Below are positions 1,687 to 47,641 of a DNA stretch of 64,000 bases, piece after piece. Below the pieces are notes generated by a model. The model did not search any database, was not told the DNA's origin, and worked only from the letters and a program-made list of their open reading frames with translations. The translations under genes were made by a program, and so were the position numbers. Each line of letters starts with the position of its first letter. Within the stretch, counting starts at the first letter, position 1. Source of the stretch: Herbaspirillum sp. 3R11 (lineage in GTDB: Bacteria; Pseudomonadota; Gammaproteobacteria; Burkholderiales; Burkholderiaceae_D); assembly GCF_004563925.1 (NCBI RefSeq), contig NZ_SPNJ01000002.1, forward strand, positions 1 to 64,000, in the 5' to 3' direction.

Positions 1687-4600
1687 ATGAACAGCGCCTC
1701 CCATCCTTCCAGCGTTTCTTCCAGCGTTTCTTCCAGCTTTATCCCTGCCTTCAGCGTCTTCCAACAGGAAGTCATGCACACGCCGACGCCATTGCGCGCG
1801 GCCATCACGGCCGTCTATCGCCGCGACGAACGCGGCGCCGTGCAGTGGCTGCTGGCGCAGGTGCAAAGCAATGCGACATGGACCGAGGCAACGCAAAAAT
1901 TGGCGCGCAAGCTGGTGCAGGCGGTGCGCACCAAGCGCACGCGTTCATCCGGCGTCGATGCGCTGATGCACGAATTCTCGCTCTCATCGGAAGAGGGCGT
2001 GGCGCTGATGTGCCTGGCCGAAGCGCTGCTGCGCATTCCCGATCACCAGACCGCGGACCGCCTGATCGCCGACAAGATCAGCAAGGGCGATTGGCGCAAG
2101 CATCTGGGCGAGTCGCCGTCGCTGTTCGTCAACGCCGCCACCTGGGGCTTGCTGATCACCGGCAAGCTGGTCGGCACGAATAGCGAAAGCGGCCTGGCCT
2201 CGGCGCTCACGCGCCTGATCAACAAGGGCGGCGAACCGCTGATCCGCAAAGGCGTCGATCTCGCCATGCGCATGCTGGGCAACCAGTTCGTCACCGGCCA
2301 GACCATCGCCGAAGCGCTGGCCAACAGCCGCGACAATGAAAAGCGCGGCTATCGCTATTCCTACGACATGCTCGGCGAAGCGGCGCTGACCGGGCACGAC
2401 GCCGACTTCTATTACAAATCCTACGAAGACGCGATCCACGCCATCGGCCGCGCCTCCAACGGTCGTGGCATCAAGGACGGTCCCGGCATTTCGGTCAAGC
2501 TGTCGGCGCTGCATCCGCGTTATTCGCGCGCGCAACACGCCCGCGTGATGAACGAACTGCTGCCGCGCCTGAAGCAATTGCTGGTACTGGCCAAGTCCTA
2601 CAACATCGGCCTCAACATCGACGCCGAAGAAGCCGACCGCCTGGAGCTGTCGCTGGACCTGATGGAAGCGCTGGCGTTCGACCGCGACCTCGACGGTTTC
2701 GAAGGTATCGGCTTCGTCGTGCAGGCGTATCAAAAGCGCTGCCCGTTCGTGATCGACTACCTCGCCGACCTGGCGCGCCGCAGCGGCCGCAAGCTGATGG
2801 TGCGCCTGGTCAAGGGCGCCTATTGGGACAGTGAAATCAAGCGCGCCCAGGTCGACGGCCTGTCCGGTTACCCGGTCTACACGCGCAAGGTGCACACCGA
2901 TCTGTCCTACCTGGCTTGTGCGCAAAAACTGCTGGCCGCAACCGACGTCATCTATCCGCAATTCGCCACGCACAACGCCCACACGCTGTCGGCCATCTAC
3001 ACCTGGGCGCAGCAGCACAAGATCGACGATTACGAATTCCAGTGCCTGCACGGCATGGGCGAAACCCTGTACGACCAGGTGGTCGGCGCCGACCAGCTCG
3101 GCAAGGCTTGCCGCATCTATGCACCGGTTGGTTCGCACCAGACGCTGCTGGCTTATCTGGTGCGCCGCCTGCTGGAGAACGGCGCCAATTCGTCCTTCGT
3201 CAACCAGATCGTCGACGAAGCGGTCGCCATCGACACGCTGATCACCGATCCCATCGTCGCCGTGCAAAAGTCCGGCGGCGAACCGCATCCGCAGATCGCC
3301 TTGCCGCGCAACCTGTACGGCGAAGAGCGCAAGAATTCTGCCGGCGTCGATCTCAGCAATGAAGACACCCTGCGCGGACTCGAGCACGCCTTTGCGCAAC
3401 TGAGCGCGCAGCAATGGCAAGCCGCACCGCTGTTGCATGACGGCGCCGTATCGATCGGCGAGACGCAATCGATCACCAACCCGGCCGACCGCCGCGATCT
3501 CGTCGGCCAGGTTATCGAAGCCTCGCGCGACGACGTCGAGAGCGCCTTGCACGCGGCCACTGAGTATGCCGTGCAATGGCAGGCGGTTTCTTCCGATGAT
3601 CGTGCGCACGCGCTGGAACGTGCCGCGGATCTGTTTGAAACGCACCAGGCCGAGCTGATGGCGCTGGCCGTGCGCGAAGCCGGCAAGTCGCTGCCGAATG
3701 CGATTGCCGAAGTGCGCGAAGCGGTCGACTTCCTGCGCTACTACGCGACGCAATCGCGCCACGACGGCAATGCGCTGGCGTGGGGACCGGTGGTGTGCAT
3801 CAGCCCGTGGAATTTCCCGCTGGCGATCTTCATCGGCGAAGTCAGCGCCTCGCTGGCCGCCGGCAACGTGGTGCTGGCCAAGCCGGCGGAACAGACGCCG
3901 CTGATCGCGCATCGCGCGGTGCAGCTGCTGCATGAAGCGGGCGTGCCGCGCGCGGCGCTGCAATTCCTGCCGGGCCGCGGCGACACCGTCGGCGCCGCGC
4001 TGACCGGCGACGCACGCGTCAAGGGCGTGATCTTCACCGGCTCGACCGAAGTCGCACAACTCATCAATCGTACGCTGGCGCAACGCATCAAGGACGAGCA
4101 CGGCGACATTCCCTTCATCGCCGAAACCGGCGGCCAGAACGCGCTGATTGTCGACTCCAGCGCCTTGCCCGAACAGGTGGTGCAGGATGTCCTGAGTTCG
4201 GCCTTCGACAGCGCGGGCCAGCGCTGCTCGGCGCTGCGCGTGCTGTGCCTGCAGGAAGATATCGCCGACAAGACCATGACCATGTTGAAGGGCGCGATGC
4301 AGGAGCTGCAGATCGGCCGTCCCGACTGTCTTGCCACCGACATCGGCCCGGTCATCGACGACGAGGCGCGCACGCAATTGCTGGCGCACATCGAGCAAAT
4401 GAAGAAGGGCGGCAAGGTCTATCAGCTGCCACTGGACGAACGTCACGAGCACGGCACCTATGTCGCGCCGACCGTGATTGAAATCGACTCCATCGCCCAG
4501 CTCAAGCGCGAAGTGTTCGGCCCCGTGCTGCACGTGCTGCGCTATCGCCGCGACCAGCTGCCGCAGCTGATCGACACCATCAACGCCAGTGGCTACGGCC

Positions 4601-43611: not shown

Positions 43612-45999
<2,388 letters not shown>

Positions 46000-46003
46000 T
46001 GAA

Positions 46004-46044
46004 TACTCCCTCCCCTTCAAGGGGAGGGCTGGGGTGGGGATGGG
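46004..46044 (+). repeat. Left terminal inverted repeat of the DUF559 element
   Basis: 41 bases. Its 46021-46044 part has five G-runs of three or four (GGGGAGGG, then GGGG, GGGG, GGG), a strong G-quadruplex-type sequence on the coding strand immediately upstream of the DUF559 start codon. Confidence 0.9.
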
Positions 46045-46050
46045 CTGACA

Positions 46051-46416
46051 ATGCAAGGTCAAACCAAGGCGTTCACGAAACTCGCAGCAAAAGAGTTGAG
46101 AAAGACGATGACCGACGCGGAACGCAGACTCTGGCATCGACTGCGTGGAGAGCAACTTGAAGTCAAGTTCCGTCGCCAACACCCTTTTGAAAATGTCGTG
46201 CTGGATTTTGTTTGCCTAGAGCGGCGCCTGGTGATTGAAGTAGACGGTTCGCAGCATGTAGAAAATCAACATGATGAAAAGCGGACCGAGAGATTGAACC
46301 TGGCGGGCTTCACCGTTCTGCGTTTTTGGAATAACGAAGTATTGAATGAGACGGATGCGGTTGTTCAGGCGATCTGGAATGCCTTGAACCCATCCCCACC
46401 CCAGCCCTCCCCTTGA
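46051..46416 (+). CDS. DUF559 (Vsr/restriction-nuclease-fold) protein
   Basis: The 121-residue protein is complete for the family: AAKELRKTMTDAERRLWHRLRGEQLEVKFRRQHPFEN, then VLDFVCLERRLVIEVDGSQH, whose Asp and the E-x-D of IEVDG form a PD-(D/E)xK-like site, then GFTVLRFWNNEVL. DUF559 proteins resemble very-short-patch repair (Vsr) endonucleases, and activity is not established. The last residues, NPSPPQPSP and the TGA stop, are encoded inside the right inverted repeat, and the only G-rich stretch before the ATG is the left repeat. Codon use appears less GC-biased than in the fad genes. Confidence 0.82.
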   Translation: MQGQTKAFTKLAAKELRKTMTDAERRLWHRLRGEQLEVKFRRQHPFENVVLDFVCLERRLVIEVDGSQHVENQHDEKRTERLNLAGFTVLRFWNNEVLNETDAVVQAIWNALNPSPPQPSP

Positions 46417-46429
46417 AGGGGAGGGAGTA
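46389..46429 (-). repeat. Right terminal inverted repeat of the DUF559 element
   Basis: Exact reverse complement of 46004-46044. It contains the last nine codons and stop of the DUF559 gene and abuts the fadA ribosome-binding site aaggag at 46431-46436. Confidence 0.9.
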
Positions 46430-46444
46430 CAAGGAGAATTTGAA

Positions 46445-47641
46445 ATGACCAAACAACTTCAAGACGCCTACATCGTCGCTGCGACGCGCACTCCGATCGG
46501 CAAAGCGCCGCGCGGCATGTTCAAGAACGTGCGCCCGGACGACCTGCTGGTGCGCGCGATCCAATCCGCGATTGCGCAAGTCCCGGGCCTCGACCCGAAA
46601 CTGATCGAAGACGCCATCATCGGCTGTTCCTTCCCTGAAGGTGCGCAAGGCCTCAACATGGCGCGCAACGCCATCTTGCTGGCCGGCCTGCCGAACACCA
46701 TCGGCGGCGTCACCATCAACCGCTATTGCGCATCCGGCGTGACCGCGATTGCGATGGCGGCGGACCGCATCCGCGTCGGCCAGGCCGACGTCATGATCGC
46801 CGGCGGCGCCGAGTCGATGTCGATGGTGCCGATGATGGGTTTCCATCCATCGGTCAACATGGGCGCGTTCAAGGACGAAAACATCGGCATGGTCTACGGC
46901 ATGGGCCTGACCGCTGAAAAAGTCGCCCAGCAATGGAAGGTCTCGCGCGAAGCGCAGGACGCGTTCGCACTGGCCTCGCATCAGAAGGCGATCGCGGCGC
47001 AACTGGCCGGCGAATTCAATGACGAGACCACTTCGGTCGACATCATCGAGCGCTTCCCCAACCTGGCCACCGGCCAGATCGACATCAAGACCCGCACCGT
47101 CAACAAGGACGAAGGCGCACGCGCCGACAGCACCATCGAGGCACTGGCAAAACTGAAACCGGTGTTCGCCGCCAAGGGTAGCGTCACCGCCGGCAACAGC
47201 TCGCAGACGTCGGATGGCGCCGGCGCCCTGATCCTGGTCAGCGAAAAGATCCTCAAGCAATTCAACCTGACGCCGCTGGCGCGCTTCGCCTCGTTCGCCG
47301 TGCGCGGCGTACCACCGGAAATCATGGGCATCGGTCCGAAAGAAGCCATCCCCGTCGCCCTGCGCGCGGCCGGCATCACCCAGGATCAGTTGGACTGGAT
47401 CGAACTGAACGAAGCTTTCGCGGCGCAAGCGCTGGCCGTGATTCAGGACCTGGGTCTGGATCCATCCAAGGTCAACCCGATGGGCGGCGCGATTGCACTC
47501 GGCCACCCGCTCGGCGCAACCGGCGCGATTCGTGCGGCGACCACCATCCACGCGATGCGCCGCAAGAATCTGAAGTACGGCATGGTGACGATGTGCGTCG
47601 GTACGGGCATGGGAGCAGCCGGCATTTTCGAACGCATGTAA
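46445..47641 (+). CDS. fadA: Acetyl-CoA acyltransferase (3-ketoacyl-CoA thiolase)
   Basis: The 398-residue thiolase starts after aaggagaatttgaa. The nucleophile Cys is in TINRYCASGVTAIAMA (about residue 92), and [26 protein letters not shown] (His) and MVTMCVGTGMGAAGIFERM (Cys) complete the site. It cleaves 3-ketoacyl-CoA to acetyl-CoA and a shortened acyl-CoA, completing the cycle begun by the fadE and fadB products. It was probably translated in close coupling with fadB before the DUF559 element intervened. Its stop codon overlaps the first base of a long foldback repeat. Confidence 0.95.
   Translation: MTKQLQDAYIVAATRTPIGKAPRGMFKNVRPDDLLVRAIQSAIAQVPGLDPKLIEDAIIGCSFPEGAQGLNMARNAILLAGLPNTIGGVTINRYCASGVTAIAMAADRIRVGQADVMIAGGAESMSMVPMMGFHPSVNMGAFKDENIGMVYGMGLTAEKVAQQWKVSREAQDAFALASHQKAIAAQLAGEFNDETTSVDIIERFPNLATGQIDIKTRTVNKDEGARADSTIEALAKLKPVFAAKGSVTAGNSSQTSDGAGALILVSEKILKQFNLTPLARFASFAVRGVPPEIMGIGPKEAIPVALRAAGITQDQLDWIELNEAFAAQALAVIQDLGLDPSKVNPMGGAIALGHPLGATGAIRAATTIHAMRRKNLKYGMVTMCVGTGMGAAGIFERM

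Follow-up and report, generated by a model that had tools for sequence, protein, structure and literature searches.

A DUF559 nuclease gene between triplex-type inverted repeats in Herbaspirillum and its likely link to the BoxC/PIT/triplex repeats of bacteria

Between fadB and fadA of Herbaspirillum sp. 3R11, in a stretch of 64,000 nucleotides (contig NZ_SPNJ01000002.1, positions 1 to 64,000; the window), lies a 426-bp element in which a single gene of the DUF559 family, encoding a predicted nuclease, is enclosed by perfect inverted repeats. Each repeat joins a hairpin to a G-rich tail laid out as the third strand of a triplex. The same package of gene and repeats recurs in several bacterial phyla, and genomes holding the repeats are enriched in the gene. 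We lean slightly towards the view that the element represents a widespread class in which the protein would recognise and nick the folded single-stranded repeats, letting repeat pairs be copied. In such a cycle, the nuclease would read the arms folded on single-stranded DNA, bind and nick them, and repair or replication would then, on rare occasions, copy the repeat pair to new sites, with or without the gene, so that gene-less pairs would be moved in trans.

The element and its arms

The element extends over 46004..46429 on the forward strand. A preliminary description of this DNA had claimed perfect 41-bp inverted repeats at its exact ends and one small complete gene inside, and both were borne out: positions 46004-46044 and 46389-46429 are 100% complementary over 41 nt, and the DUF559 (PF04480) open reading frame (46051..46416, forward strand, 121 aa, predicted nuclease of EDxHD/Vsr or PD-(D/E)XK type) is the only complete gene within the element. 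Each arm consists of a 21-nt palindrome followed by an inward-pointing, 16-nt G-rich tail. The left arm (46004..46044, forward strand) carries its hairpin at 46008-46028, where the pyrimidine strand CCCTCCCC precedes the pairing purine strand GGGGAGGG; a 3-nt spacer (46029-46031), the third-strand tail GGGTGGGG mirroring the purine strand (46032-46039) and the motif ATGGG (46040-46044) complete it. By reading, the tail matches the purine stem at 8 of 8 positions in the antiparallel register. As single-stranded DNA the arm is predicted to form a hairpin at -10.2 kcal/mol, and 7 of 200 shuffled versions fold equally well.

The right arm (46389..46429, reverse strand) has the same hairpin and tail in inverted orientation, and supplies the last eight codons (PSPPQPSP) and the stop codon (46414-46416) of the DUF559 gene. 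In an alignment of homologues reaching down to 60% identity with the window protein, 13 of 21 have the peptide PSPPQPS at the same place. At the other end, in the stretch 46029-46050, the G-rich tail of the left arm ends 6 nt 5' of the DUF559 ATG and may double as a ribosome-binding site. A role as promoter or terminator was rejected: we found no promoter-like site, no T-run terminator at the arms, and a single terminator-like site inside the gene at 46302. A known RNA family was rejected as well, two matches both falling under the gathering score. We infer that the element is transcribed together with the fad operon.

Gene and repeats across bacteria

The association of gene and repeat was also looked at outside the genus, where it holds in several phyla. 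A sample of 80 DUF559 loci from named genomes was kept, mostly from Proteobacteria with some from Chloroflexi, Nitrospirae and others. Inverted ends (score of at least 16) surround 55 of these loci and none of the 80 shuffled controls; among the best 30 loci of a class-level sample the figures are 17 and, after shuffling, 0 of 30. Of 123 DUF559 loci (at least two entered twice, as L144/L047 and L145/L048), 111 have a polypurine hairpin no more than 250 bp away; among neighbouring windows, 21 of 230 do. The cyanobacterial L337, Deinococcus L335 and Azospirillum L338 loci each have their own version of the repeat. On the Pseudanabaena plasmid (L337:600-1150), near-identical long ends hold a CCCCCC-AGAATT-GGGGGG hairpin followed by CTA and GGGGGG.

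Such palindromes could be ordinary regulatory hairpins, terminators for instance, or could stand by chance beside an unrelated small gene, and their intergenic position and the hairpins of the control windows would fit. This account fares badly with the shuffled controls, none of which has inverted ends, and with the hairpins beside nearly all the DUF559 loci. Terminator palindromes unrelated to DUF559 had been named in the preliminary description as a finding that would speak against it; what we found are repeats tied to DUF559 and window arms free of T-runs, and the accessible text of PMC4666352 describes PIT elements as lacking terminator activity. We therefore consider this explanation highly improbable.

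The repeats also track the protein. Within Betaproteobacteria alone, repeat type follows the protein tree with 8 changes (shuffled minimum 9, n=24), and host class as the sole cause of repeat type was rejected on this ground; class itself tracks the protein tree as well, with 20 changes against a shuffled minimum of 29. Whether a tail is present did not follow the tree better than shuffled labels (12 changes; mean 13.9, minimum 10). A second alternative is that DUF559 proteins are domesticated structure-specific repair nucleases, kept by the host to resolve folded repeats that another system spreads. It leaves unaccounted for both the packaging of the gene between repeats at the 55 loci and the tracking of the protein by repeat type, and we hold it to be rather unlikely.

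As to how often these units relocate, locus pairs of at least 80% protein identity share at least one flank in 7 of 7 cases, and 9 of the 53 remaining pairs compared share a flank over at least 100 nt, which argues for long residence with rarer relocation. At L161, L170 and L297 the inverted ends extend well past the hairpin, which suggests a longer original element. Five alphaproteobacterial loci (L169, L204, L214, L216, L219) have paired palindromes with no G-rich tail and may form a branch of this system that does without a triplex.

Co-occurrence in genomes

Genomes with only weak DUF559 matches were set as non-carriers at E 1e-15 (25 of the 85 class genomes and 31 of the 96 order genomes that had any match). 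In the class sample (274 genomes), strong DUF559 genes then occur in 39 of the 64 genomes that have the type-ii motif and in 21 of the 210 that do not (odds ratio 14, p=9e-16, shared ancestry ignored). In the order sample (220 genomes, type i/iii motif) the figures are 20 of 25 and 45 of 195 (odds ratio 13, p=4e-8, shared ancestry again ignored). A reversed control pattern gave 0 copies among the matches listed for these samples, and the motif reaches 123 copies in genome G174 and 105 in G151.

The genome of Herbaspirillum sp. 3R11 has a single DUF559 gene and ten palindromes, all arranged as five inverted pairs: the fad element and four short pairs deprived of a gene; the reversed pattern had 0 matches there. 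The whole-genome search proposed in the preliminary description thus finds the same repeat pair elsewhere, free of any DUF559 gene. The short pair at C3:500k represents the full element after a deletion, with 82% identity to its 3' part. Among the 274 class genomes, the exact type-i arm is found only in this genome (G000), in 8 copies. A more far-reaching proposal, which we put forward as tentative, is that of an unrecognised bacterial replicator, in which a restriction-type nuclease would act on DNA folding into a triple helix and one gene per genome would serve gene-less repeat pairs.

Stem and tail change together

The triplex layout of the arm makes a prediction about sequence change, which was addressed on hairpins with a G-rich tail only (79 of the 123 loci, contributing 152 unique combinations). 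Each tail matches its own stem at 0.953 in the antiparallel triplex register, against 0.833 for permuted tails (maximum 0.859 of 2000) and 0.825 in the parallel register; keeping one row per stem (n=29), the match is 0.924 against 0.797 permuted (maximum 0.862 of 5000). In the order sample, the search pattern did not constrain one position of the stem and one of the tail; tallied by hand from 150 listed of 204 sites, these stem/tail positions are G/G in 113 cases, A/A in 35, G/A in 2 and A/G in 0, and genome G488 on its own has 7 A/A and 8 G/G sites. Stem and tail thus vary in concert, a constraint that a simple hairpin does not impose. This points to selection on triplex pairing in living genomes, as the tail stays matched to the stem through changes in both.

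The repeats of Escherichia coli and ycjD

Triplex-forming repeats have been reported in E. coli since the 1990s, with neither a function nor a means of spread, as far as the accessible text of PMC4666352 goes; it maps 23 copies of an intrastrand triplex motif in strain MG1655, stable as a triplex in vitro and unsupported as a stable triplex in vivo. The parts of that publication at hand report no transposase or integrase remnants and no mobility genes near the motifs, and its main text contains no word starting with 'nuclease', 'DUF' or 'ycjD'. The window arm shares with these BoxC/PIT/TM-ECO motifs the succession of pyrimidine stem, loop, purine stem, 3-nt spacer and third-strand tail. Inverted pairs are common to both, with tails inward in 4 of 5 E. 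coli pairs (our reading of Table 1 of PMC4666352 as available), and so are lone-hairpin forms. The preliminary description mentions neither the triplex layout nor this kinship, nor the coding part of the right arm. They differ in sequence: the window has the stem GGGGAGGG and the tail GGGTGGGG where E. coli has GGGNGAGGG, and the window arm does not fit the E. coli consensus CCCTCNCCC...GGGNGAGGGN3GGGNGAGGG. A pattern related to that consensus has 0 copies in the 3R11 genome, which carries the GGGGAGGG type. To judge by sequence, the window repeat is the same kind of motif, of a different sequence type.

In E. coli K-12, ycjD (1351407-1351760) is a DUF559 gene (167 bits), and one of the 23 motifs (no. 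9, 1351204-1351239, confirmed in the sequence) lies 168 bp from it, a neighbourhood with a chance expectation of 0.003. Strain TC_EC10 has an extra full motif over the 3' end of ycjD with its tail inward, as in the right arm of the window. Because the gene-repeat package recurs in several bacterial groups and the repeat adjoins ycjD, the DUF559 enzyme is likely the missing partner that moves or maintains these repeats.

Allelic forms are also found among E. coli strains. At hrpB-mrcB, the pair is reduced to a lone hairpin in one strain and absent from two; at alx-sstT, a lone hairpin stands in one strain and other DNA in another; at ygfF-gcvP, the pair is missing from two strains along with ygfF. 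In kind, these E. coli lone hairpins correspond to the lone-hairpin alleles of Herbaspirillum. The fabI-sapF site (L309, L310, L316) holds ycjD with a triplex motif in some strains and an efflux operon in others, the latter being eef according to the available text of PMC12817139.

The DUF559 protein

The window protein matches the PF04480/DUF559 profile with E=1.7e-37 and 128.1 bits (curated cut-off 20.6). Residues E24, D52, E63, D65 and H69, which we take to be the putative catalytic residues, are invariant across 79 aligned DUF559 sequences, two loci with early stops being excluded. On an AlphaFold2 model (mean predicted local distance difference test score 79; residues 1-12 unreliable), structure comparison supports the Vsr-like nuclease core announced in the preliminary description and points to the catalytic fold of EDxHD homing endonucleases. 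Among solved structures, the nearest relative with characterised biochemistry is I-Bth0305I (3R3P), by profile (E=9.5e-5) and by fold. Protein Data Bank sequence matches beyond 3HRL and 3R3P had E values of 0.04 or worse and were discounted as chance. YcjD, NGO0050 (3HRL) and Caulobacter VsrA are of the same family and fold; the sources, as far as available, regard them as Vsr-like or devoid of a settled role and do not mention a link to repeats.

A known defence gene was rejected, PADLOC models matching 0 anti-phage defence families, and PHROGs gave weak matches only, including a homing endonuclease family at E 3e-4. The family has 6573 relatives by our count. The reading as a phage or plasmid gene was rejected: among phage records, 2 of 50,697 contain a relative, and among plasmid records, 44 of 72,556.

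Residence and loss in Herbaspirillum

The upstream neighbour fadB (43612..45999) and the downstream neighbour fadA (46445..47641), both open reading frames on the forward strand, owe their names to the preliminary description and the operon context. The exact fit described there was confirmed: the element starts 4 bp past the end of fadB (45999) and stops 1 bp ahead of AAGGAG, read from the sequence as the fadA ribosome site (46431-46436, forward strand), and the two genes would be 19 bp apart if the 426 bp were taken from the 445-bp gap.

Among 34 genomes of the genus, 33 have fadB-fadA. The preliminary description had named presence of the gene at this site in all related species, with diverged flanks, as a finding against it; this is half the case, since nine genomes carry the full element there, six a lone hairpin and 18 neither. 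The arms flank every one of the 9 strong DUF559 genes in the genus and none of the 8 weak matches, which are other proteins by score. Away from fad (at most one mismatch, 61 genomes), palindromes are found only in the carriers G000 and G010, plus a single site in G035, which belongs to another genus. G010 also has tandem hairpin arrays (L131:1230-1500, L132:1300-1480) with intact outer copies, decayed inner ones and tails outward. Upstream of the element in G010, G015 and G021 stands a second right arm, which we read as a probable remnant of tandem duplication.

The gene is under purifying selection, with a ratio of nonsynonymous to synonymous divergence (Ka/Ks) of 0.10 in 28 pairs of the 8 intact copies; the ninth copy, in G012, has a stop at codon 43. 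Mean Ks is 0.65 for DUF559 and 0.41 for fadA. As the former is not below the latter, the gene is an old resident of the genus, and a recent jump into the fad operon is not supported there. Lone-hairpin genomes cluster within the carrying group, with weak support (0.32) for the group of six, and since they group inside it their hairpins are most likely loss scars; recombination or slippage between the two palindromes would remove the element and leave one hairpin. A clean target duplication was found neither at the fad site nor at C3:500k, and the comparison of filled and empty sites suggested earlier therefore yielded no clean duplication of the element. The self-contained unit envisaged by the preliminary description as mobile or domesticated stands as a unit; recent movement is not supported, the gene looking old and vertically inherited. 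On these comparisons the element appears to be a long-settled resident of the fad operon.

The same data bear on a third alternative, a selfish gene similar to homing endonucleases, whose protein would cut alleles free of the element or with a lone repeat, repair then copying the gene in. It draws on the kinship with I-Bth0305I, on the patchy presence at one site and on the occurrence of lone-hairpin alleles. In five focal genomes no co-conversion tract was seen around the fad site, the average divergence of the DUF559 alleles is no lower than that of their flanks, the lone hairpins resemble loss scars, and gene-less repeat pairs are left unaccounted for. We deem homing unlikely, slightly more so than a repair role; both are live rivals.

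Observations against a nuclease that copies its repeats

Several observations weigh against our preferred reading, that the DUF559 protein nicks the folded repeats and lets them be copied; the Ks values and the target-site comparison given above are among them. At the level of loci, 25 of 80 have no inverted ends above the cut-off, an absent arm being possibly absent sequence since some loci stop near the gene (L150 and L179, for example). Of the 78 loci left after L155 and L184 (early stops) were taken out of the alignment and trees, 15 show no recognised type of hairpin plus G-rich tail, and 8 of these 15 are alphaproteobacterial. An inverted pair was not seen at the gonococcal, phage and Synechocystis DUF559 loci, the last having one motif. 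Repeats occur in genomes with no strong DUF559 gene (25 of 64 in the class, 5 of 25 in the order, where the family of 4 of the 5 exceptions includes DUF559 carriers), and DUF559 carriers occur with no copy of the searched pattern (21 of 60 and 45 of 65). In E. coli the motifs lie on the 3' side only, no motif being found 5' of ycjD, so that the gene is not flanked, and some strains lack ycjD at fabI-sapF. As for the protein, Vsr is a weak Foldseek match (E 0.04), and in the structure comparison its Z is equalled by mitoribosome proteins.

In the 3R11 genome, the three short pairs other than C3:500k lie inside larger insertions with their own outer ends, absent from the relative G030, and at C9:33k such a larger insertion has a direct repeat of about 11 bp. 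Because these three sit in insertions with ends of their own, the short pairs were perhaps carried by another transposase. The insertion family (L042:1080-1400 and 4010-4330; L041:960-1280) has outer ends like AGGGCAATTGCATGAAG, and one of its members has a direct repeat of about 11 bp, GCTTTACACTC. It perhaps represents a second, separate small mobile element.

Relation to known systems and outlook

In REP/RAYT systems, formed by repetitive extragenic palindromes and REP-associated tyrosine transposases, the gene has a low copy number. The element resembles the REPtrons of PMC3733652, in the text available, by its nuclease-type gene between inverted palindromic repeats that are also found alone, paired or arrayed, and the REPtron feature of flanking repeats that also occur with no gene was found here. 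It differs by its DUF559 nuclease in place of an HUH tyrosine transposase, and by arms that bear a triplex-type tail and no GTAG tag. Owing to the enzyme it falls outside REP/RAYT, and the likeness concerns the working principle only: we read it as a nuclease-plus-repeat element that would operate as REP/RAYT does, with a different enzyme and a different DNA structure. In contrast to the EDxHD homing endonuclease I-Bth0305I and to Vsr, the 121-aa window protein has no extended DNA-binding region and, unlike I-Bth0305I, its gene has no intron or intein host.

Among the matches listed in the open-access literature, subscription journals lying outside the search, no paper joins DUF559 to BoxC/PIT/triplex repeats. 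The repeats and the protein family were both already known; the link between them appears to be new. It gives each a testable partner, including in E. coli K-12 with ycjD and 23 mapped repeats, and concerns thousands of small DUF559 nucleases with an unsettled substrate. If the tentative replicator proposal is true, DUF559 would be the driver so far lacking for the BoxC/PIT/triplex repeats, in bacteria ranging from E. coli to cyanobacteria, and the system would be a counterpart of REP/RAYT built of unrelated parts.
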